Shown here piece by piece: positions 2-15,672 of a DNA stretch of 15,672 bases. This DNA is from an uncultured Eubacteriaceae bacterium (GTDB lineage Bacteria > Bacillota > Clostridia > Eubacteriales > Eubacteriaceae): NCBI GenBank assembly GCA_947625175.1, contig CANQNI010000015.1, positions 1 to 15,672 of the forward strand, written 5' to 3'. Within the stretch, counting starts at the first letter, position 1, and every line of letters begins with the position of its first letter. A program made the translations under genes and the position numbers. Below the pieces are notes generated by a model, which saw only the letters and a list, made by a program, of their open reading frames with translations, had not been told where the DNA came from and did no database searches.

Positions 2-1096
2 ATTTTTGAAACAACAGGAGTAGAAGCAAGTACTATTCATCGACTTCTTGAATTCGAGTATTCTGAAAATTTAAATATTATGAGTTTTAAACGTAATGAA
101 GAATACCCATTAGAAGTAGATGCGGTTATTGTTGATGAAAGTTCTATGATCGATATTCAGCTTTTAAGTAGTTTATTAAAAGCTATAGCTTTTGGGACCC
201 GAGTAATCTTCGTTGGTGATGCTGATCAGTTGCCTAGTGTTGGCCCTGGTAATGTTTTATCGGATTTAATTAATAGTGGTATAGCTCATACTGTTAAACT
301 TGATCAAATCCATAGACAAGATAAAAATAGTATGATTGCTACAAACGCTCATTTAATAAATGAAGGGGTTATCCCTAAAATCGATAATTCTTCTGATTTT
401 ATGTTAGTTAATAAATCTGATTCTCAAGTTACTTTAGATACAATTTTAGATCTAGTTTCAAACAGGTTTCCTAAAGCTTTTAATTATGATCCACTTAATG
501 ATATACAGGTTATTAGTCCTTTAAAGAAAGGACTCTTGGGAACGATATCATTAAATGCTGAAATCCAGAAAAAACTTAATCCTCCCTCCCCTACTAAAAA
601 AGAAAGAAATTTTGGATCTATTATTTTCCGGGAGGGGGATAAAGTTATGCAGACTAAAAATAATTACAATCTTAATTGGGAAAATCCTCTTACTGGTGAT
701 GAAGGTAAAGGAATTTTTAATGGAGATATTGGAATTATTAAAACTATTACTAATGAAGGTTTTATAATCGAATTTCTCGATAAAAGGATTAGCGAATATA
801 GTTTTGATCAGTTAGACGAAATAATTCATGCTTATGCTGTTACAGTACATAAAAGTCAAGGATCTGAATTTAAAGTAGTTGTTATGCCTTTATTTGGTGG
901 ATATCCTCAATTTCTAAATAAACGTTTACTTTATACAGCCGTTACTAGAGCAAAAGAAAAATTAATGTTAGTTGGAAAAAGTAATTGGTTTGATTATATG
1001 GTTTTAAATAATATAGAAAACAATAGAAATTCAAGATTAGATGAGCAAATTAAAGAATTAAACGAGGAAAATAATTTTTTTAATTTAACTTCATAG
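2..1096 (+). CDS. recD2: RecD2-like ATP-dependent DNA helicase, C-terminal part (5' end outside window)
   Basis: Superfamily 1B 5'-to-3' DNA helicase of the RecD2 (YrrC) family, which acts in DNA repair and replication-fork maintenance without RecBC. The frame is open from nt 2, upstream of the first ATG at 80, so that ATG is internal. The Walker A motif and the N-terminal domains are missing off the left edge; about 364 residues remain of a family usually near 750-800. Visible in order: a TTGVEASTIHRLL stretch at the edge, motif II VDESSM near nt 130, motif III VGDADQLPSVGPGN near 215, motif IV LDQIHRQ near 300, a REGDKVMQTKNNY and FNGDIGII segment typical of RecD2 between 630 and 740, motif V HAYAVTVHKSQGSEF near 830, and motif VI LLYTAVTRAKEKL near 930. 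It converges on the tRNA operon, with only 21 bases between its stop codon and the tRNA-Arg 3' end. No hairpin terminator of its own is visible. Confidence 0.93.
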   Translation: MFETTGVEASTIHRLLEFEYSENLNIMSFKRNEEYPLEVDAVIVDESSMIDIQLLSSLLKAIAFGTRVIFVGDADQLPSVGPGNVLSDLINSGIAHTVKLDQIHRQDKNSMIATNAHLINEGVIPKIDNSSDFMLVNKSDSQVTLDTILDLVSNRFPKAFNYDPLNDIQVISPLKKGLLGTISLNAEIQKKLNPPSPTKKERNFGSIIFREGDKVMQTKNNYNLNWENPLTGDEGKGIFNGDIGIIKTITNEGFIIEFLDKRISEYSFDQLDEIIHAYAVTVHKSQGSEFKVVVMPLFGGYPQFLNKRLLYTAVTRAKEKLMLVGKSNWFDYMVLNNIENNRNSRLDEQIKELNEENNFFNLTS

Positions 1097-3973: not shown

Positions 3974-4453
3974 TTAATCCAGTTTGTAAAATTCACAATC
4001 CAGATCTTTTCCATCTAATGTTAAAATTGCATAACTTTTACTGTCGTCACTAGGTAAGGAAACAGAACCCGGATTAATTAAAATAACACTATTTAATTTC
4101 TCCAAATGCTTTTTATGGGTATGTCCGAAAATTCCAATATCAGCGCCATTCATCTTAGCTTTTTGAGCAAATTCCTCTTTACCCCATTTAACGTTTTCCC
4201 GGTTTCCATGAGCAATATATAAAGTAAAATCTTCTACGTTTGTTTTAATAAAATCAGGACGGTTTTGTTCATAACTATCCATATTTCCTTTTACTGCCAT
4301 AACCGGTATATTTACCCATGTTCTTATTTCATCGGCATCAGAGATATAGTCCCCCATATGGATAATCAAATCTACATCACCCATTTGATTAATAGCTTCT
4401 TGAAGCTTATTAAGATCACCATGGCTGTCGCTTACTAAACCTATTTTAGTCAT
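3974..4453 (-). CDS. YfcE/MJ0936-family metallophosphoesterase (B. subtilis YsnB-like)
   Basis: A 159-residue soluble phosphodiesterase of the small calcineurin-like family. All metal-binding boxes are present: SDSHG (8-12), HMGD (32-35), GNMD (56-59), AHGN (81-84) and FGHTH (109-113). Family members cleave phosphodiesters in vitro with divalent metal; the cell substrate is not settled. I take ATG at 4453 as the start because it places the core MTKIGLVSDSHG as in relatives, with GAGG close ahead. A TTG at 4462 in frame would add three residues. The start overlaps the stop codon region of the rph-rdgB fusion gene by eight bases, indicating translational coupling. The order rph-rdgB-yfcE is the same as rph-ysnA-ysnB of B. 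subtilis. Confidence 0.9.
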   Translation of the reverse strand: MTKIGLVSDSHGDLNKLQEAINQMGDVDLIIHMGDYISDADEIRTWVNIPVMAVKGNMDSYEQNRPDFIKTNVEDFTLYIAHGNRENVKWGKEEFAQKAKMNGADIGIFGHTHKKHLEKLNSVILINPGSVSLPSDDSKSYAILTLDGKDLDCEFYKLD

Positions 4454-5777
4454 TTTCCTCAATCCATTTATTTATTTCTTCTTTAGCTAATTCAATGGCT
4501 TTTCCTCGATGAGAGACTTCATTTTTTTCTTCTAGAGTCATCGTTGCATAAGTCTTACCAGTAGAATTTTCTATAAATAGTGGATCATATCCAAATCCTT
4601 CTGTTCCTTCAGGTTCTTCTGCAATGACTCCTTCTACATTCGATGTTACATTTTTCTTAGTTCCATCCGGGAAAATAATAGAAATACTGGTTTTGAATTC
4701 AGCATTTCGATTAGTTTGATCTTTTAATTCTTCAAGTAATTTTTTATTATTTGATTCATAGGTAGCTTCATCTCCACTATAACGGGCAGAATAAACTCCT
4801 GGAGCTCCATCTAGAGCTTCAACAAAAAGACCCGTATCATCGCCTAATAGAATTGCTTTATGTTCTGACCCTAATTTATCTCTTAAAAATTCAGTTTTAA
4901 TATCAGCATTTTCCTGGATAGTTTTTCCATCTTCTACTGGCTCATCCATTATGTTAGCTTCTTCCATAGTTAGAACATTAAAGTCATCCCCTAAAAGTTC
5001 CGAAACTTCTTTGACTTTATGTTTATTATGAGTAGCTAAAATAATATCCTGTTTATCTTTTGTAGAGGATTTTTTTTGAATTTCAACTAATTCTTTAATA
5101 CCCTTTTGGGCTAGATTCATTAATTGATTAAGTTCATCTTGGGAGAATGGTCTTTCTTCACCAGTTGCCTGAACTTCAATAAGTTCCCCCTGGTCAGTCA
5201 TAACGACATTCATATCAACCATTGCACCTTTATCCTCATTATAATTAAGGTCTAAAACAGGTTCGTTAAGTTCAGCAGGAATTCCAACAGAAACAGCCGC
5301 TACTTGTCTTGTTAAAGGATTTTCTTCTAGTTGACCAGATTCAAGCAAACGATCAATAGCTTTTTTAAGAGCTACATAAGCTCCTGTTATAGAGGCAGTA
5401 CGAGTTCCACCATCAGCCTGAATAACATCGCAATCAATCCAGATAGTTCTTTCTCCAAGTTTTTCAAGATCAATAACAGATCTTAAGGCTCTTCCAATTA
5501 ATCTTTGAATTTCTACACTTCTTCCGTCTGCTCCTTTACCTCCATCTCTTTGCTTTCTAGTAATAGTTGAACCAGGAAGCATATTATATTCAGCACTAAT
5601 CCAACCTTTACCCTGACCTCTTAAGAATGGAGGAACCTTATCATCTACCATTGCAGTTATAATTACTTTGGTATCTCCAACTGAAATTAATACGGAACCA
5701 TCAGCAGATTTAATAAAATCTTGTTCAATTTCAACATTCCTTAACTGATCATTTTCTCTTTTATCGAATCTTTCCAT
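4446..5777 (-). CDS. rph-rdgB: Fused RNase PH and RdgB/HAM1 (XTP/dITP) pyrophosphatase
   Basis: A 443-residue, two-domain protein. Residues 1-238 are RNase PH, a phosphorolytic 3' exoribonuclease that trims tRNA precursors: RGQGKGW (53-59), GGTRTASITGA (123-133), the acidic box NEDKGAMVDMNVV (180-192) and EVQATGEERPFS (201-212). Residues 244-443 are an inosine-triphosphate pyrophosphatase that removes non-canonical purine NTPs such as XTP and dITP: ATHNKHK (248-254), GDDTGL (312-317), GAPGVYSARYSG (324-335), GFGYDPLF (394-401) and SHRGKA (422-427). A short charged linker (KKSSTKDKQD) joins them. Both halves look catalytically intact. The reading frame runs through without a stop, so the fusion is real in this sequence. 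The Shine-Dalgarno site AGGGGG lies five bases before ATG and directly abuts the terminator behind gatB. In B. subtilis the same two functions are separate neighbouring genes. Confidence 0.95.
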   Translation of the reverse strand: MERFDKRENDQLRNVEIEQDFIKSADGSVLISVGDTKVIITAMVDDKVPPFLRGQGKGWISAEYNMLPGSTITRKQRDGGKGADGRSVEIQRLIGRALRSVIDLEKLGERTIWIDCDVIQADGGTRTASITGAYVALKKAIDRLLESGQLEENPLTRQVAAVSVGIPAELNEPVLDLNYNEDKGAMVDMNVVMTDQGELIEVQATGEERPFSQDELNQLMNLAQKGIKELVEIQKKSSTKDKQDIILATHNKHKVKEVSELLGDDFNVLTMEEANIMDEPVEDGKTIQENADIKTEFLRDKLGSEHKAILLGDDTGLFVEALDGAPGVYSARYSGDEATYESNNKKLLEELKDQTNRNAEFKTSISIIFPDGTKKNVTSNVEGVIAEEPEGTEGFGYDPLFIENSTGKTYATMTLEEKNEVSHRGKAIELAKEEINKWIEEND

Positions 5778-9026: not shown

Positions 9027-11000
9027 CTATTTAATGTCATCTTCTGAAAGTATTGGAATTCCTAAATTTTTAGCTTTATCATATTTACTTCCTGGATTTT
9101 CTCCTGCTAAAACATAATCCGTTTTTTTACTTACAGATCCAGTAACTTGAGCTCCTTTGCTTTCTAAAAGGGCTTTAGCTTCTTTTCTGGATAAATTCGG
9201 GAGAGTACCAGTAATAACTACTTTCTTACCACTAAATTCAGAATTAGTATTAACTTCCTTACTTTCAGATTTTAAATTTAACCCTTCTTCTTTTAATCTA
9301 CTTATTATAGCTTTATTGGAATCAGTTTTAAAGAAATCTACCAGATTCTCAGCAATCTTTTCACCGATACCATTAATTTGGGCAATATCTTCAACTGAAG
9401 CTTTTTCCAGCTTTTCAATTGAGTTAAATTCATTGGTAATAAGCCTAGCAGCTCTTTCTCCAACTAATGGAATTCCCAAAGCATAGATAACTTTTTCAAA
9501 CGGTTGTTTTTTTGAATTTTCAATTGAAGCCAAAAGATTATCAACCGATTTTTCACCTAACTTTTCCAGTTTAACCAGGCTTTCTTTTTGTTCATGCAAA
9601 TCATAGATATCAGTTACCACTGAAATTAAATTATTATCCAAGAGTTGTTTAATAATAGAAGAACCCAATCCAGTTATATCCATAGCATCTCTGGAAGCAA
9701 AATGGACTATTCTTCCAAACACCTGAGCCGGACAATCCAGATTCAGACAACGAGTGGCTGCCTCGCCAGGAACCCGAAATGTTTCTGATCCGCAGACAGG
9801 ACAGTATTCTGGCATTTCAAACTCCTGGGACTGGTTTCTTTTTTCCAGAACAGGTTTGACGACTTCTGGAATAACGTCTCCAGCTTTACGGATAATAACA
9901 GTATCTCCTATCTGAATATCTTTATCTTTTACATAATCTTCATTATGAAGAGTTGCTCTTGAAATAATACTACCAGCGAGGGGTGTAGGTGTTAATTCAG
10001 CAACCGGAGTTAAAACTCCTGTTCTTCCTACTTGAACCGTAATAGCTTTAACCACTGCTTGAGCTTCTTCCGGAGCAAATTTATAAGCTATAGCCCATCT
10101 AGGAGATTTAGTGGTAGATCCAAGTTCCTCTCTTATTTGAAACTGGTTTACTTTAATGACCATTCCATCAATTTCAAAAGATAACTCCTGTCTTATTCCA
10201 TGAGCCACTTCATCTATATAGATGATAATATCATCAATATTAGAAAATTCTTTAGTCGGGCTTACTTTAAAGCCCAGAGATTTTAAGTAGGCCAAAGCTT
10301 CTGAATGCGTTTTTATTCCTGGTAGATCAGTTTCTGGATTAAAAATAAAAATATCCAGTGGTCTACCTGCTGAAATTTTTGAATCCAGTTGTCTTAAAGA
10401 ACCTGCAGCGGCATTTCGAGGATTAGCAAATAAAGACTTTTCCTGTTCTTCCCGTTTTTTATTAAGTTTTTCAAAAGCATCTTTATGAATTAAGACTTCA
10501 CCACGGACTTCTAGAGAAACATCTTTATTTAACTTAAGAGGAATCGTTTTTACTGTTTTTAAATTTTCAGTAATTTTCTCTCCAACAACTCCATTACCCC
10601 GGGTAGCCCCTTGAACAAATTTTCCATCCTGATAATCTAAAACAACCGTTAAACCGTCAAATTTATACTCAACACAATAGGTAGCATTTGGGAATTCTTT
10701 TTTTATTCTTCTATCAAAATCTCTTAAATCTTTAGCATCAAAAGCATTAGCTAAAGATAATTTAGGAGAAATAAAAGTTACTTTTTCAAATTTATCTAAA
10801 GCTTTACCACCTACCCGTTGAGTGGGAGATTCTGGTGATTTAAATTCAGGATTTTCTTCTTCAAGAGTAATTAATTCCTGCATTAATTTATCATAATCAT
10901 AATCAGAAATTCGAGGCTGATCTTCTTCATAGTAGTCCTTATTAGCCTTGTTAATTTTTTCTCTTAATTCCTGAATTCTGGCTTCAATATTATTTTTCAT
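9027..11000 (-). CDS. ligA: NAD+-dependent DNA ligase
   Basis: The 657-residue bacterial replicative DNA ligase, close to the usual 660-680. Domains in order: the Ia domain with the NAD-binding DYYEEDQP and SDYDYDKLM segment (22-40), adenylation domain with active-site Lys113 in KFDG (113-116), OB fold with GDTVIIRKAGDVIPEV, a Cys4 zinc finger (CPVC and CLNLDC, near 400-425), helix-hairpin-helix repeats with GIGEKIAENL, and a C-terminal BRCT domain starting at GKKVVITGTLPNLS. Its ATG overlaps the end of pcrA by 11 bases, so its translation is probably coupled to pcrA. pcrA-ligA adjacency is standard in Bacillota. Confidence 0.98.
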   Translation of the reverse strand: MKNNIEARIQELREKINKANKDYYEEDQPRISDYDYDKLMQELITLEEENPEFKSPESPTQRVGGKALDKFEKVTFISPKLSLANAFDAKDLRDFDRRIKKEFPNATYCVEYKFDGLTVVLDYQDGKFVQGATRGNGVVGEKITENLKTVKTIPLKLNKDVSLEVRGEVLIHKDAFEKLNKKREEQEKSLFANPRNAAAGSLRQLDSKISAGRPLDIFIFNPETDLPGIKTHSEALAYLKSLGFKVSPTKEFSNIDDIIIYIDEVAHGIRQELSFEIDGMVIKVNQFQIREELGSTTKSPRWAIAYKFAPEEAQAVVKAITVQVGRTGVLTPVAELTPTPLAGSIISRATLHNEDYVKDKDIQIGDTVIIRKAGDVIPEVVKPVLEKRNQSQEFEMPEYCPVCGSETFRVPGEAATRCLNLDCPAQVFGRIVHFASRDAMDITGLGSSIIKQLLDNNLISVVTDIYDLHEQKESLVKLEKLGEKSVDNLLASIENSKKQPFEKVIYALGIPLVGERAARLITNEFNSIEKLEKASVEDIAQINGIGEKIAENLVDFFKTDSNKAIISRLKEEGLNLKSESKEVNTNSEFSGKKVVITGTLPNLSRKEAKALLESKGAQVTGSVSKKTDYVLAGENPGSKYDKAKNLGIPILSEDDIK

Positions 11001-12387
11001 TTATTTTCTCAACATATCCTTCAGCTATTAATTTTTTATCTCCACCAGGAAATAGAATTGTTAAAATTCCCTTTTTATTATTAACAACAAAGCCACGTCC
11101 AAAGGATTGATGTTTAACTATATCACCAGTTTTAATTTTACTAGTATTAGTTTTTTTACGAATATTAGGTTGATAGAGTTCTTTCTTTGTTTCTCTTTCC
11201 GGTTTAAAACTGGTGTAATAATCATGTTTTAAATACTTAGTATTAACGATGTTTTCAGGCAGTTCAGATAAAAAGCGTGAAGGTTTTTGATAGCGCATAT
11301 CTCCGTTAATGAGTCTCTCCCGCGCATGGGTTAGGAATAACCTTTCTTTTGCTCTAGTTATTCCAACATAACAGAGTCTACGTTCTTCTTCTACATCTCC
11401 TTTACTTACTGACTGATATGAAGGAAAAAGATTTTCTTCAAGACCTGTTAAAAAAACTACTGGAAATTCAAGGCCTTTAGCACTATGAACTGTCATAAGA
11501 GAAACTTTATTTGAATCATCCATTTCATCAACTGAAGAGGACAGTGCAGCATTTTCTAAAAATTCATTTACTGTCATATCTTTATTCTCTCGGGCTGTAC
11601 CAATTAGTTCTTTAACAAACTCTTGTTTACTCTCCCCATTTATTGAAGTATCTGTTTTTAAATAATCCTTATAACCTGTCCGGTCAAATATTATTTCTAG
11701 CTTCTTATCTAATGATTCATCAATACTTTCAACTCGAATTGATTCTATTAATTCTCTAAATTTAATAAATTTTATTTTTACTCCCTTAGTTAAGGTAGGA
11801 ATATCTTCGACATTCAGAACTGATTCATAGAGACTCCAACCTTTAAAATCAGCATATTCCTGGAGCTTTTCGATACTTTTAGCCCCAATTCCTCTTCTTG
11901 GCATATTAACAATCCGGTTAAAAGAAAGATCGTCTTTCTTATTTTCTATAAGTGAAAGATAAGAAAGTAAATCTTTTATCTCTGCTCTATCGTAAAATGC
12001 CAGAGATCCTACTGATTTATAGGGAATTCCTAATCTTTTAAACTGTTCTTCAAAATTTCTAAACTGAATATTAGTTCTAAACAGAATAACAAAATCTTCA
12101 TAATCAAAATGATCGTTTTCCCGCAAATCTAATATTTGTTGAGCAGCAAAGCGGGCTTCTTCACTAGCTGTATTAAACTGTTTAGCTATTACAGTTTGTC
12201 TTTCTTCTTCATTGGCAGTCCAAAGATTTTTACTTTTTCTATTAACGTTGTTACTTATTACATTGTTTGCGCATTCAAGAATATCTGGTACAGAACGATA
12301 ATTTTCTTCAAGTCTAACGACTTGAGCTTCTGGCCAGTCTTTCTCGAAATCTAAGATGTTTCTAATATCGGCTCCTCGCCAACCATA
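10990..12387 (-). CDS. pcrA: pcrA 3' exon: UvrD-family DNA helicase PcrA, motifs III to VI and C-terminus
   Basis: The 3' exon of a split pcrA gene, 465 codons. PcrA is an essential-type 3'-to-5' SF1A helicase in Bacillota, removing obstacles and RecA from DNA. The exon starts at TAT (12387) with YGWRGADI, the second half of motif III. Then come EENYRS (motif IV), the 2B domain, VSLMTVHSAKGLEFPVVFLTG (motif V) and EERRLCYVGITRAKERL (motif VI). A C-terminal Tudor-like domain known to bind RNA polymerase follows (TGDIVKHQSFGRGFV). No Walker A or motif II lies here; those are on exons upstream of the introns. The frame stays open to an ATG at 12453, but those extra 22 codons are intron domain V and VI sequence and not PcrA. 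It overlaps ligA by 11 bases. Splicing to the middle exon restores DQSI-YGWRGAD in phase 0. Confidence 0.95.
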   Translation of the reverse strand, partial: YGWRGADIRNILDFEKDWPEAQVVRLEENYRSVPDILECANNVISNNVNRKSKNLWTANEEERQTVIAKQFNTASEEARFAAQQILDLRENDHFDYEDFVILFRTNIQFRNFEEQFKRLGIPYKSVGSLAFYDRAEIKDLLSYLSLIENKKDDLSFNRIVNMPRRGIGAKSIEKLQEYADFKGWSLYESVLNVEDIPTLTKGVKIKFIKFRELIESIRVESIDESLDKKLEIIFDRTGYKDYLKTDTSINGESKQEFVKELIGTARENKDMTVNEFLENAALSSSVDEMDDSNKVSLMTVHSAKGLEFPVVFLTGLEENLFPSYQSVSKGDVEEERRLCYVGITRAKERLFLTHARERLINGDMRYQKPSRFLSELPENIVNTKYLKHDYYTSFKPERETKKELYQPNIRKKTNTSKIKTGDIVKHQSFGRGFVVNNKKGILTILFPGGDKKLIAEGYVEKINEK

Positions 12388-12388
12388 G

Positions 12389-12448
12389 TAGGATAGGAAT
12401 TGCTTCCCTCCTCCGAACCGAACGTGCACCTTACAGCGCATTCGGCTC
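12389..12448 (-). other. Domains V and VI of the first (complete) intron
   Basis: Domain V (12448-12415) is 34 nt: it begins GAGCCG and ends CGGTTC, contains the catalytic AGC triad in its 5' strand, and is capped by a GTAA (GNRA) tetraloop. Domain VI (12414 to 12389) folds as AGGAA-GCAA-TTCCT and lower pairs between GGAGGG and TCC, leaving an unpaired A in TTCCTATCC as the candidate branch point. An intact active-site hairpin argues that the ribozyme still works. Confidence 0.88.
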
Positions 12449-12462
12449 TCCATTTATGAATT

Positions 12463-13656
12463 CTACAAATTTTTCTTCTTATTTCTTTCTAATTGAGGTC
12501 TGTTATCAATATCTGGAGACAGGTTTGGACGGTGTGTTTTAAAACCCTTATAAAACGGAACCTGATTTATTCCCCAGCTGTCACCTATCCTGTATTTTTC
12601 CTTAATGTTATTCATTGTAGTCCGATGTTTTCTAGCTAATGTCTTAAGACAGGAGGTCTCCATAATATATTTTAGTTGTCCAAATTTTCTAGAAACATTA
12701 CTTGCTATAGAATAATATTGATAAAAATTTTTAAGTTCACTATTATAAATTCTAAAAATTTCTTCATCTGTTAAATTTAACAAATATCCCCGGTGTTTTG
12801 ATTTCCAGGGTTTTTGATCAATATCTTTAACCAGATCCTTCTTTAGAATAAATGATTTAATAACATCTTGAGGTACTTGTAATAAAGTAGGTCCTAACTC
12901 TGAAGTGTGGACATCATATTCAAGAAATCTAATTCTTTGACCACTTCTTTTAAAGATAGGGTTAGTTTCATAATTATAAGTATTATAAAGTGTATCAATA
13001 ACGATTGATCGATTATTTTTTTCCCATTCACATAAACCTATTAACAAGGCTCCTCTATATCTAACCCAACTTATATTAAACGAATCCATGATTCTATCTA
13101 AAGGGTGCAAATAAATATTAATTAATAAGTCACTAAATTCATTTTCTGCTAGTGTTCTAGAATAAGTAGAATCTTTTGAAAAATTAACCGTCTTAACAAA
13201 TTTATTAACTAAACGAATTAATCTCTCATCGTGAATTTTTCCACTAAGTTCGAAATCAAGAATTCTATAATCTATATTAGTTATTAAATCATTTAAATCA
13301 AAATAAAGATAATAAGGATAAAAACCTAAATCTTCTCTGATTGAACTTAAACAAGTATGTGCATTTCTATTTAAAATTCCCGAATGGACTGACTTTGAAA
13401 AACTTGTTAAATAAGCTGCTGATAATATAGCTGTTAGAAGTTTTTCAACAGGATCATTTTTCTGAGCTTGATAAGTTTCATCTTTTAAAGACGAAATAAG
13501 ATCTGGACGAACAGGTTGAGTATAATATTTTTCATTTAAAAAAAAGCGATATAACCGCTTATACTCATAAGATTCATCTTTACTTTGTAGATTTAAAAGT
13601 AGTGTTTCTAAATTTTTAATAAGCCTTTCGCTCCTTTTAAAAACAACACTTTTCAT
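12463..13656 (-). CDS. Group II intron maturase with decayed reverse-transcriptase domain (YRGA in place of YADD)
   Basis: A 397-residue intron-encoded protein, chloroplast-like type. The start segment RLYRFFLNEKYY (34-45) and HSGILNRNAHTCLSSI (91-106) match the RLYR.LYN and HGFRPGRSCHTAL boxes of active relatives. The RT domain is badly eroded: the RPLGIP region is deleted (TYQAQKNDPVEKLL, 61-74), FDNIDH reads ITNIDY (125-130), the PQG box reads LAE (169-171), and the catalytic YADD reads YRGA (200-203). Asp120, aligning with the first catalytic Asp, remains. Domain X, the maturase part that binds and folds the intron, is well kept: NFYQYYSIASNVSR (310-323) and SCLKTLARKHRTT (335-347). No HNH endonuclease cysteines are present at the C-terminus. 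I infer splicing help without reverse transcription, as in organellar MatK. No strong ribosome-binding site precedes the ATG. Confidence 0.88.
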   Translation of the reverse strand: MKSVVFKRSERLIKNLETLLLNLQSKDESYEYKRLYRFFLNEKYYTQPVRPDLISSLKDETYQAQKNDPVEKLLTAILSAAYLTSFSKSVHSGILNRNAHTCLSSIREDLGFYPYYLYFDLNDLITNIDYRILDFELSGKIHDERLIRLVNKFVKTVNFSKDSTYSRTLAENEFSDLLINIYLHPLDRIMDSFNISWVRYRGALLIGLCEWEKNNRSIVIDTLYNTYNYETNPIFKRSGQRIRFLEYDVHTSELGPTLLQVPQDVIKSFILKKDLVKDIDQKPWKSKHRGYLLNLTDEEIFRIYNSELKNFYQYYSIASNVSRKFGQLKYIMETSCLKTLARKHRTTMNNIKEKYRIGDSWGINQVPFYKGFKTHRPNLSPDIDNRPQLERNKKKNL

Positions 13657-13657
13657 A

Positions 13658-13725
13658 AACTGTCGTACTTCGCCACGTAACAGGATTTCCCTGTCTCAAA
13701 CTACTATTACGACTCCGTTACCATA
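13658..13725 (-). repeat. Intron 5' structural segment shared with 15605-15672
   Basis: This 68-base segment, just before the maturase start codon, aligns without gaps to 15605-15672 in the other intron with roughly three quarters of bases identical, the block CCGTTACCATA (plus strand) being unchanged. It contains the hairpin ACAGG-GAAAT-CCTGT (minus strand). It is part of the intron RNA and not an independent repeat. Confidence 0.85.
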
Positions 13726-13825
13726 TAAATACTTAGGTAATCCCCATTTCACTTAAAAGTCCAGGATAAAATTTATTGGAAGGAACTTTCGACATATTGT
13801 GTTAAAGAAATAATTGCAATAAATT

Positions 13826-13868
13826 AATCGACTTATTTAATTTACTACTTCTTTAATTAAAGGGATCA
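13826..13868 (-). other. Candidate exon-binding sites EBS1 and EBS2 of the first intron
   Basis: The minus-strand AGTCGATT (13833-13826) can pair with the last eight exon bases AATCGATT (14037-14030), using one G-U pair; this fits EBS1-IBS1. About 30 bases earlier in the intron, TGATC (13868-13864) can pair with GATCA (14041-14037), fitting EBS2-IBS2, though the two exon sites then touch or share a base. The order EBS2 before EBS1 and a distance of about 200 nt from the 5' splice site are reasonable. This is read by eye without a folded domain I. Confidence 0.45.
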
Positions 13869-14029
13869 TAGCCTCACTTGTCTATTCTTCACGCAGTTTA
13901 GCATTCTTCCAGTAAATTTTCTTATAGATTTTGTCATGCTATTGTCCCGTTTCAATTTCTCTCTAACGGTTAGACAAACTCTATTAAACCGCTTCCCAAG
14001 CAGAAAACTAATAAGCTTAATGGGCGCAC

Positions 14030-14127
14030 AATCGATTGATCATCATCTCCGCAAACGCATAGATTGCGATAGCCCTGAGCTAACATTTTTACAAACTCGT
14101 ATTGAACCCGGTTTGTATCCTGATATT
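14030..14127 (-). CDS. pcrA: pcrA middle exon (98 nt) between two group II introns
   Basis: A tiny exon of two bases plus 32 codons. Read on the minus strand from TAT at 14125, it encodes [15 protein letters not shown], then [17 protein letters not shown]. This is unmistakably PcrA/UvrD: YQDTN is the end of motif II (DEYQDTN), and GDDDQSI is the start of motif III (GDDDQSIYGWRGAD). The leading AA should complete a Glu codon whose first base is on the upstream exon, so the 5' intron sits in phase 1 inside DEYQD and the 3' intron in phase 0 between Ile and Tyr. The 3' junction is exact: ATT then GTGCG. There is no internal stop or frameshift. It carries the Gln of the DEYQD box and part of the ATP-coupling motif III, so an active helicase needs it. 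It is too short for ordinary gene finders and would be missed. Confidence 0.93.
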
Positions 14128-14128
14128 G

Positions 14129-14215
14129 TAGGATAGAAACTAACCGCCTTGAATTAATCAGGTTTATCAGTTTCCTCCTCTAAACCGTACGTACACGTCT
14201 CCGCGTATACGGCTT
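14129..14215 (-). other. Domains V and VI of the second intron
   Basis: Domain V (14215-14182) is 34 nt: AAGCCGTA pairs with TACGGTTT, the AGC triad is present, and a GAGA (GNRA) loop caps the ACGCG/CGTGT helix. Domain VI is longer than in the other intron: GAAACTGATAAACC pairs with GGCGGTTAGTTTC, and the A of the final TATCC is left bulged seven bases from the end. Both domains appear intact. Confidence 0.88.
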
Positions 14216-14251
14216 GCCATTTACATAACCTTACAGAAAATATGATTGCAT

Positions 14252-15565
14252 TTAATTTGGAATAATATCAATATTATTCAGCGGCTTTTTATTCCTTTTA
14301 AAACTTCTTTTTAATGAAACTATCTTATTCTTATCTGAATTCTGAATTTTAATTCCCCAAATGCTTCCAGTACGAAGTTTTGATTTTATTTTAGCTACTG
14401 AACTTTTATGTTTTGTAGCTAATGTTTTTAAACAACTCTTTTCCATGGGATAAAAGATCATATTCATCTGACTGCTAACATTGTTAGCTAAGCGGTAATA
14501 ATCATAGACTGCGTTTAACTTTCTTTTATAATATAAAAGAATCTGAAGATCACTTTGATTGACCAACTCTGGTTTTACTAAAGGCTTCCATGGATTTTCA
14601 TTAAAATTTTTAATTATTTTTTCTTTCTTTAAGAACTCATTCTTAAAACAGGAAGGCATTTTAAGCTTTACCTTTGACTGATCTAAGTAATTTTTAGTTC
14701 TAGAAATTAAAATGTTATATCCAATAAAATTAATGGTTTTATCAGATTCTTTTATTTTAACCTCAATCGATTCAGGTTTTATTTTTAATTCTTCAGATAA
14801 GAATTTAATTATAGAGTTCCTAATTTTACGGGAAAAGTTAAAATCTTTATTAATTCCAATTAGAAAACTTCCTGCATAACGAACATAATTTAGTTTATTT
14901 TCTGATTCTTCAAGCTTATTTATAAACTGATCTAGTTCATTTAAATAAATATTTAATAGAATCTGATTTAAAGGACAACCAATTGGTTGTCCTGAGAAAG
15001 TTCTATTAATATGCCACTGCTTAAAATAACCGGCTTTTAGAAACTTCCATATTAACCGGATAAAGCGTTCATCTTTTATTCTTTTTCTTAGAATTTGAAT
15101 TAAAATATGATTATTAAAACTCTTAAAGTCATTTATGGTAAATGAAATTAAATAGGTGGAATTAAAAAAATTAGAATTAATTTCTCTTAGAGCTGTATGA
15201 CAACTTTTATTGCTTCGATATCCGTGAGAGGAGTTATTAAAAGTTGGTTCATAAATAGCATCTAAAATTAATTTTAGAACTTCCTCAATTAATTGGTCTT
15301 TTAAATTAAAACCAGGATTAATTAAACTATTTTGATTAATACTTATTTTTTTTGGCTTATAACTTTCATCTCTTAATGACTGGATAAGTTGTTCTATAGT
15401 TTTTTTTACTTCTTCAGGAATATTTTTTTCTTTTTTATTTAATTTAGAATAAGCTGAATAATATAAATTTTTATTATAAAGTAACCGGTATAATCTGGTA
15501 AAAATAAAATCTTCTTTTTGTGTATCAAATGTAAGGTTTTTTAATACTGTTTTAGAATCTTGCAT
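14252..15565 (-). CDS. Group II intron maturase with inactive reverse-transcriptase domain (YAGS in place of YADD)
   Basis: A 437-residue chloroplast-like intron-encoded protein, better preserved than its neighbour. Recognisable parts: RLYRLLYNKNLY (24-35), SLRDESYKPK (63-72), SSHGYRSNKSCHTALREI (112-129), KFLKAGYFKQW (174-184), LLNIYLNELDQFI (203-215), YVRYAGSFLIGI (227-238) where active enzymes have YVRYADDFLIGI, and INFIGYNI (278-285). Both catalytic Asp residues of YADD are replaced (Gly232, Ser233). The PQG box reads PIG, the RPLGIP box reads INPGFN (82-87), and FFDNID reads FNNHIL. Asp146 in INDFK keeps the first catalytic Asp. Domain X is intact: YDYYRLANNVSS (355-366) and SCLKTLATKHKSS (377-389). 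There is no HNH endonuclease domain. AAAGGAG sits about 11 bases before ATG. It is probably a splicing-only maturase. Confidence 0.9.
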   Translation of the reverse strand: MQDSKTVLKNLTFDTQKEDFIFTRLYRLLYNKNLYYSAYSKLNKKEKNIPEEVKKTIEQLIQSLRDESYKPKKISINQNSLINPGFNLKDQLIEEVLKLILDAIYEPTFNNSSHGYRSNKSCHTALREINSNFFNSTYLISFTINDFKSFNNHILIQILRKRIKDERFIRLIWKFLKAGYFKQWHINRTFSGQPIGCPLNQILLNIYLNELDQFINKLEESENKLNYVRYAGSFLIGINKDFNFSRKIRNSIIKFLSEELKIKPESIEVKIKESDKTINFIGYNILISRTKNYLDQSKVKLKMPSCFKNEFLKKEKIIKNFNENPWKPLVKPELVNQSDLQILLYYKRKLNAVYDYYRLANNVSSQMNMIFYPMEKSCLKTLATKHKSSVAKIKSKLRTGSIWGIKIQNSDKNKIVSLKRSFKRNKKPLNNIDIIPN

Positions 15566-15604
15566 AGAGCCTGTTGCTCCTTTCTAAGCTAGTATTAACA
15601 TGTA

Positions 15605-15672
15605 AACTATCGTCCTTTGCCGCGTACAGGGCTTTCCCCTGCTCAGACTACTACGACGATTCCGTTACCATA
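15605..15672 (-). repeat. Intron 5' structural segment shared with 13658-13725
   Basis: The counterpart of 13658-13725, in the second intron, cut by the window edge. Here the hairpin is CAGGG-GAAAG-CCCTG: the stem bases differ from the other copy but pairing is kept. This shows common descent of the two introns and constraint on RNA shape. Confidence 0.85.

Follow-up and report, generated by a model that had tools for sequence, protein, structure and literature searches.

Why would a needed helicase gene carry group II introns whose own proteins have lost the active site of reverse transcriptase (RT)? The question is raised by the window, that is, the whole stretch of DNA analysed here, which is the entire contig C15 (15672 bases) of a draft genome (1.6 Mb, 238 contigs, 84% complete) from an uncultured Eubacteriaceae bacterium. 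Of 7999 relatives found for its GatB protein, the 119 non-self ones listed are 75–81% identical to it, and those with names are Eubacterium, Pseudoramibacter and a Eubacteriaceae MAG, so that the host probably represents a genus of the Eubacteriaceae. The minus-strand pcrA gene of the window is interrupted by two group II introns, i1 and i2, each coding for an intron-encoded protein (IEP1 and IEP2). A sequence-only reading had described these proteins as RT-dead maturases that keep domain X, and the pair as a bacterial parallel to MatK. We consider it quite likely, judging from sequence comparisons, that RT-dead LtrA-like introns have become trapped in needed genes, where they would be immobile by their own means and vertically inherited, with their IEPs acting as splicing-only maturases. 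Below, genomes are numbered with G (G000 is the window's own), database proteins with P, loci with L and the contigs of G000 with C.

Two introns in pcrA and their proteins

That two adjacent pcrA introns encode RT-dead maturases was borne out. Alignments with relatives that keep the catalytic YADD place YRGA at this position in IEP1 and YAGS in IEP2. The motif A aspartate is kept in IEP1 and is a threonine at the aligned position in IEP2, and neither protein has both the YxDD and the motif A aspartate of an active group II intron RT. The PQG and RPLGIP boxes, which had also been called damaged, are replaced (PQG) and deleted or unrecognisable (RPLGIP) in both. Domain X is recognised in both by PF01348 [Intron_maturas2; 4e-13 for IEP1, 2e-13 for IEP2], and its boxes are intact (SCLKTLA.KH and YY..AsN / YY.LANN); PF00078 [RVT_1] matches IEP2 only. 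The two reading frames contain no stops in 397 + 437 codons, compared with 28–69 in each of the five other frames. The predicted structure of IEP1 keeps the LtrA-like fold, with the RT-like part still complete in this one model, so that the structural elements of a maturase, domain X and an RT/thumb fold, are both present, the fold being judged from IEP1. Because the RT active site is lost the introns are unlikely to be mobile on their own, as had been proposed.

Intron i1 shows the features of a group II ribozyme: a 5' GTGYG, domains 5 and 6 (D5-D6), a 3' AY and in-frame exons; i2 was judged on its 3' half only. The former is inserted in pcrA motif III, between the GDDDQSI and YGWRGAD codons, and the latter within the motif II codons DE|YQDTN, the phase being read from the uninterrupted gene of a same-genus genome, G002. 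The exon pieces are open and in frame: the translation of the 98-nt exon, which is 75% identical to G002 PcrA over 32 aa, is followed by YGWRGADIRNIL. The 5' exon lies on contig C39 and ends after AMDFDD at a third intron (i3) of a different family, which we call family B. On that contig (L237 1–455; L240) i3 begins with GTGCGACTCGTT after AMDFDD, has no open reading frame (ORF) in its visible part, and has its 3' end off the contig. A second, uninterrupted pcrA was not found in the 84% complete assembly (E <= 1e-8).

The exon-binding site (EBS1) of i1 has a candidate that pairs with the intron-binding site (IBS1) at the 5' exon end (Table 1); an alternative 6-bp candidate lies at intron position 73. 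Candidates fall at one alignment column in 7/12 introns of this family, against a maximum of 4 in 200 shuffles, while i1 and its G002 counterpart have theirs at their own shared column, away from the family's main one. In IIA introns the base 5' of EBS1 is expected to pair with the first base of the 3' exon (delta-delta'). In all six introns with both visible (i1, G000 addA, Gracilibacillus, G208, G619 and G610) it is an A opposite the U which opens the 3' exon, A being common in such AT-rich RNA.

Table 1. Positions of the pcrA exons, the introns and the intron-encoded proteins in the window
Feature	Position	Strand	Evidence
pcrA 3' exon, YGWRGAD to stop	10990..12387	-	UvrD_C etc. match; open frame to stop
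i1, complete group II intron, 1642 nt	12388..14029	-	GTGCG 5' end, CTAC 3' end, in-frame exons, RF00029 D5-D6
D5-D6 of i1; presumed AGC catalytic triad and bulged branch A 7 nt before 3' end, positions read from alignment	12388..12450	-	RF00029 60.3 bits, gathering 40
IEP1, RT-dead maturase, 397 aa	12463..13656	-	open ORF, PF01348 match
IEP1 domain X, residues 259-355	12592..12882	-	PF01348
IEP1 YRGA replacing YADD, residues 200-203	13048..13059	-	alignments with YADD-keeping relatives
Candidate EBS1 of i1, 7 bp including 1 G-U with 5' exon end	13827..13833	-	same alignment column as the 7-bp Watson-Crick candidate of the G002 intron
pcrA exon of 98 nt separating i2 from i1, from the end of motif II to motif III	14030..14127	-	translation, 32 aa
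IBS1, 5' exon end of i1	14030..14036	-	pairing with candidate EBS1
i2, 3' part only (5' half beyond contig end at 15672)	14128..15672	-	RF00029 match
D5-D6 of i2	14128..14217	-	RF00029 56.9 bits, gathering 40
IEP2, RT-dead maturase, 437 aa; AAAGGAG ribosome-binding-like site upstream	14252..15565	-	open ORF; LtrA nearest by sequence
IEP2 domain X, residues 312-429	14279..14632	-	PF01348
IEP2 YAGS replacing YADD, residues 230-233	14867..14878	-	alignments

Two further features of the window may be mentioned. Positions 11317–11418 match RF03531, a C. difficile small RNA within a helicase gene, at 46.5 bits (gathering 65.2), which probably reflects conserved pcrA coding sequence. The sequence of a single ORF at 4446–5777 looks like that of an RNase PH joined to an RdgB-like XTP/dITP pyrophosphatase.

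Class of the introns and repeated loss of the RT active site

By sequence comparison the IEPs of the window and their active relatives are LtrA-like, that is, of the mitochondrial-like (ML)/IIA class, LtrA being the IEP of the IIA intron Ll.LtrB; the assignment was made against solved IEPs rather than a full class-labelled reference set. Phmmer scores for LtrA and the next best solved IEP were 211 vs 75 bits (IEP2), 118 vs 22 (IEP1) and 494 vs 153 (the active P0034), and profile A5 gave 764 for LtrA vs 188. The chloroplast-like class was considered and rejected: 6me0, which we take to be a chloroplast-like IEP, reached 41 bits with IEP2 vs 211 for LtrA and was absent from the matches of IEP1. 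The chloroplast-like proteins suggested earlier as a yardstick are therefore not the nearest class. Intact IEPs of the same kind (G610 addA, L234; G032, L094; LtrA, PDB 5g2x/8h2h) differ from those of the window in their length of 604–608 aa, an intact YADD and a C-terminal domain which, from its Cys/His motif and the protein length, is presumably an endonuclease. In the class table of a 2015 review, ML is paired with IIA only (PMC4424553).

Three RT-dead IEPs occur in G000, the third (YQNQ) in an addA intron at KQSI|YRFR, the motif III position paralogous to that of i1. RT-dead relatives recur in other bacteria. A profile scan of genome contigs built on the dead proteins found 515 relatives, of which 80 loci were kept and the motif was read in 36; it was Y[AC]DD in 32 and lost in 4. 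At or near the top of the ranking were RT-damaged IEPs from the motif III site of helicase genes, in addA of Gracilibacillus (YGAH), pcrA of Metabacillus malikii (YADQ) and addA of M. lacus (FADE); one of lower rank is in Thermoactinomyces daqus nrdF (YAGD). Among database proteins YADD was present in 137/148 and replaced in 11, numbers that give no frequency since the queries were RT-dead. The 397 genomes of the M. malikii order added two addA introns, G208 (YADS) and G449 (HAGD, inserted 6 nt upstream), and further RT-dead IEPs were seen in dinB of G004 (YADT) and an amidase-like gene of G057 (YGES).

A junction DNA pattern, which is blind to RT state, matched 3/398 genomes of the M. malikii class and 1/391 of the window's class, the latter at two sites, in samples without G001, G002, G067, G069, G208 and G449; the reversed pattern had no match among the genomes listed. 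Of the five sites, four (G068, G619 and both in G000) hold RT-dead introns and one an intact intron. This last, in addA of G610 at the homologous motif III site, has a complete YADD IEP of 604 aa and aligns in the 5' RNA.

On a maximum-likelihood tree of 49 chosen IEPs (19 dead, 30 active) the active/dead state changes 11 times, nine of these being forced by well-supported branches, with 10–12 changes in bootstraps. Active rows are direct sisters of dead ones in five sets, i.e. P0034 (M. lacus), P0058 (M. malikii), P0143 (Thermoactinomyces), L126 (G004 and P0063) and L169 (G057), and in all five the longer branch is on the dead side. The intact G610 and dead G619 stand within one 7-row clade. 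P0042, which like P0128 keeps YADD and has Asn at motif A, was counted as active. These results indicate that the RT active site was lost repeatedly across the wider tree. Gracilibacillus, Metabacillus and other Bacilli carry RT-dead relatives at the addA/pcrA motif III site, with one intact version alongside.

We regard it as unlikely that RT was lost just once, in a common ancestor from which the lineages of the window descend, and that a helper RT then spread the dead intron in trans. Such a history would fit the rows of the window and its kin (i1, i2, addA, G001 and P0003), which are long branches whose mutual order has no support, and the clustering of the dead label (11 changes vs a shuffled mean of 15.5; 5/500 shuffles as low); ORF-less introns mobilised in trans are described from Thermosynechococcus elongatus in the relevant part of one report (PMC2882425). 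The forced changes and the active direct sisters argue against it for the tree as a whole. As for sequencing or assembly error, which a draft metagenome-type assembly might invite, it is hardly credible: the 19 dead rows carry 19 different replacements, in open frames and independent assemblies that include the isolates M. lacus, M. malikii and T. daqus.

P0032, P0034 and P0039, with 484–541 aa, keep YADD and are too short for the C-terminal endonuclease, and possibly represent an intermediate stage of decay.

Persistence, selection and the fate of the introns

Two same-genus genomes were found, G001 and G002. In pcrA of G002 an intron is inserted exactly where i1 lies, its maturase having YHNS in place of YADD, and the i2 and i3 sites are uninterrupted. 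Both introns at this site have a shortened 5' RNA, of 373 nt in i1 and ~359 nt in G002 (counted up to the start position given by the alignment, where there is no start codon; a GTG exists further 5'), compared with 559–646 nt in seven others. Their IEPs are 37% identical over 192 codons, and the PcrA proteins 59–75% in the pieces compared. Family B introns in pyrG and recD2, both judged ORF-less, are also common to the two genomes as mutual best matches (75% and 66%), and the site of another in a Na/Pi cotransporter gene looks shared, judged by the 3' exon. Together the RT-dead intron at one site and the shared ORF-less introns point to long vertical persistence, and so uphold the earlier view that such introns can endure in a housekeeping gene. 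A DhaL-type gene of G001 contains an intron whose IEP is RT-dead (YGTD), and G001 and G002 have one intact IEP each, apparently of a different class. The same-site pair bears on another claim, that the different replacements in i1 and i2 indicate separate losses. Since the two members of this pair themselves differ (YRGA and YHNS), replacements evidently drift after the loss, and the argument fails.

Recent mobility was looked for and there was no sign of it: the three RT-dead IEPs of G000 are 33–40% identical to one another, and an RT-active relative of their class was not found in the 84% complete assembly. The other RT of this genome above the PF00078 cut-off resembles that of a diversity-generating retroelement. 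It lies on contig C159 (L049 3–698 + 1040–3334), where a YVDD reverse transcriptase at the contig end stands beside a possible variable-protein gene, and the two look like such an element to us.

The suggestion that selection be assessed separately on the RT and X domains was followed. Because the Nei-Gojobori dS was saturated for most pairs we used the ratio of nonsynonymous to synonymous differences (pN/pS) with bootstrap intervals. It was 0.63 (0.52–0.79) for the RT domain of i1 vs G002, 0.63 (0.49–0.80) for domain X of i2 vs the addA IEP, and 0.41 (0.32–0.52) for domain X of i1 vs G001; over whole proteins the interval lay below 1 in 13/13 pairs, one of them active-active. In 17/17 triplets change along the dead lineages was faster in the RT domain than in domain X. 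The pooled Mantel-Haenszel odds ratio is 2.61 (p 3.8e-7), from nine of the 17 triplets, about one per lineage and some with a common outgroup. In G619 vs G610, with its short active branch, dN/dS is 0.12 for RT and 0.11 for X, and RT is not visibly freer there.

These data bear on whether the introns are merely dying, the IEPs being recently inactivated and drifting, and pcrA already non-functional or replaced by another copy. The RT domains are indeed decaying and the tree branches long, and non-mobile derivatives are said, in a passage of the 2015 review, not to persist long in bacteria (PMC4424553). Such an explanation is nevertheless very unlikely given frames free of stops, a pN/pS below 1, conserved open exons, a same-site intron in two species as far apart as their PcrA proteins, and similar RT-dead open frames in isolate genomes. 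It is also decidedly unlikely that the introns self-splice without these IEPs, or that the IEPs are kept for another role, e.g. RNA binding in regulation. ORF-less introns do persist in the same genomes with no cognate IEP detected, and C.te.I1 of Clostridium tetani is described in the same review as a robust self-splicer in vitro, in a genome without an IEP-related gene (PMC4424553). Domain X, however, changes least on the dead lineages, as is expected of a maturase.

We therefore return to RT-dead introns retained for splicing. Their ancestors would have been LtrA-like (ML/IIA) introns that retrohomed into the conserved helicase-motif DNA of pcrA, an origin suggested by the insertion sites, the EBS1/IBS1 pairing and the intact relative found in addA at the paralogous position. 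An intron lodged in a needed gene would be retained only if it splices. The RT would then be free to decay, as seen in the active-site loss and its faster change relative to X, and the RNA and maturase surface would be held by selection, as seen in the open frames, pN/pS, D5-D6, candidate EBS1 and domain X. Each IEP would most likely be a maturase confined to splicing, acting on the intron that encodes it and thereby allowing pcrA mRNA to be produced; it may dock on the RNA through its still-folded RT-like part, with domain X steadying the core. Introns without mobility of their own would be passed on vertically. The preference for conserved motifs may stem from a slowly changing homing site present in every new host, and an intron lodged there would be hard to lose except by exact removal.

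Several points weigh against this proposal. We infer the splicing of the pcrA introns from sequence alone, and the essentiality of PcrA is that of other Bacillota, extended here to this host. The 5' half of i2 and the exon preceding it are unassembled, a draft of 238 contigs at 84% completeness could lack a second pcrA or a cognate IEP with active RT, and these introns might still be mobilised in trans by an RT of other origin. The IEP at the i1 site of G002 ends with its contig before domain X. EBS1 candidates lie off the main column in M. malikii and M. lacus (column 385) and in G449 (363). The pN/pS values span time before the loss of RT, with synonymous change near saturation, and the 17 triplets share branches and outgroups, only four of them reaching p <0.05 individually (i1 0.049, i2 1).

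Companion introns and known systems

RF00029 detects seven introns in G000, and pcrA i3, of which only the 5' part is visible, makes eight. Five are family B introns judged ORF-less, in the Walker A motif of recD2, pyrG, the Na/Pi cotransporter gene, sbcC and pcrA (i3); both ends are visible for the first three, and the last two are cut by contig ends. G002 has seven introns so judged, five with both ends visible. EBS1 is complementary to the intron's own exon at one column in 9/9 family B introns with a 5' end (four from G000, five from G002), against a maximum of 5/9 with shuffled exons in 300 trials. A family B IEP was not found with PF00078 and profile A1 in G000 and G002, or with PF01348 in G000, searches which a degenerate copy could escape, the intact family B-type IEP of G012 itself scoring only 2.4e-6 with profile A1. 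The G012 protein, of which a piece was compared, is not LtrA-like (97 bits to GsI-IIC, 87 to LtrA).

There are two recD2-like genes in G000 (window 2–1096; L044 56–1303), which share 85% identity over 360 aa. In the one on C151 Walker A is interrupted by the ORF-less intron; the other, in the window, is truncated by the contig start, which falls downstream of this position. In G002, family B introns also occur in two surface-protein-like genes (L053 8339–8423, L056 1876–1960), reminiscent of the C. tetani surface-layer intron.

A bolder possibility is that the genus has a chloroplast-like splicing economy, in which a few RT-dead maturases act as general splicing factors, in trans as well as in cis. 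The introns served would be a stable, vertically inherited set in genes for DNA repair and housekeeping, some of them ORF-less and of another family, and no RT-active cognate would remain. We hold it only tentatively, as rather doubtful. The ORF-less introns of both genomes, with no cognate IEP detected, are what would suggest it; counting against it, the autonomous relative of family B is not LtrA-like, and the ML/IIA class of the window's IEPs makes action on family B introns in trans less likely.

The closest known systems are taken to be O.i.I2, MatK, the intact LtrA-like IEPs described above, the TeI3/TeI4 introns of T. elongatus and Prp8 of the spliceosome. According to the parts of the 2015 review that deal with them, degenerate IEPs and ORF-less introns are both rare in bacteria, and O.i.I2 of Oceanobacillus iheyensis radC, of the ML class, without YADD and other motifs and without stop codons, is the only known degenerate IEP named (PMC4424553). 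The ML/IIA class brings both this precedent and the IIA intron of MatK closer than was first thought. Compared by description and not by sequence, O.i.I2 resembles the introns of the window in its class, the loss of YADD, the open frame and a DNA-repair host gene, and each of the latter taken alone is a further member of its kind. That is a single case, whereas here the loss has recurred, dead and intact forms are found at the same position, an intron has persisted at its site in two species, and ORF-less introns occur alongside; these features are what is new. Group II introns in addA or pcrA were not found in the open-access literature searched.

MatK, encoded in the chloroplast trnK intron (IIA), has likewise lost the RT active site and kept domain X, as far as the pertinent sections of two articles describe it (PMC4424553, PMC13172542). 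Further points of likeness are that the host gene is needed, that inheritance is vertical, that the genome also contains ORF-less introns and that the RNA is of class IIA. In contrast, the RT-like fold is complete in our model, and several RT-dead maturases, each in its own intron, are found on a bacterial chromosome. PF01824 [MatK_N] has no match in the window proteins at E 0.01, and the matches of P0071 and L100 to it fall short of the cut-off. IEP1 and IEP2 may thus work like MatK in cis, but with no PF01824 match and pcrA as host gene they are not MatK. The parallel drawn at the outset is fair to that extent, although O.i.I2 preceded it in print. The TeI3/TeI4 introns of T. elongatus, as the section on them has it, share the ORF-less state and diversified EBS1 target sites, but there the IEPs are RT-active and drive the movement of the ORF-less introns, and insertions within genes are few (PMC2882425), unlike the RT-dead IEPs of the window and its located insertions in protein genes.

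If the splicing economy were true, it would represent a bacterial intermediate toward MatK- or Prp8-like splicing machinery. Should splicing itself be confirmed, the culturable Metabacillus lacus and M. malikii would allow tests of how a selfish retroelement first turns into a splicing factor, a step not readily studied with MatK or Prp8.

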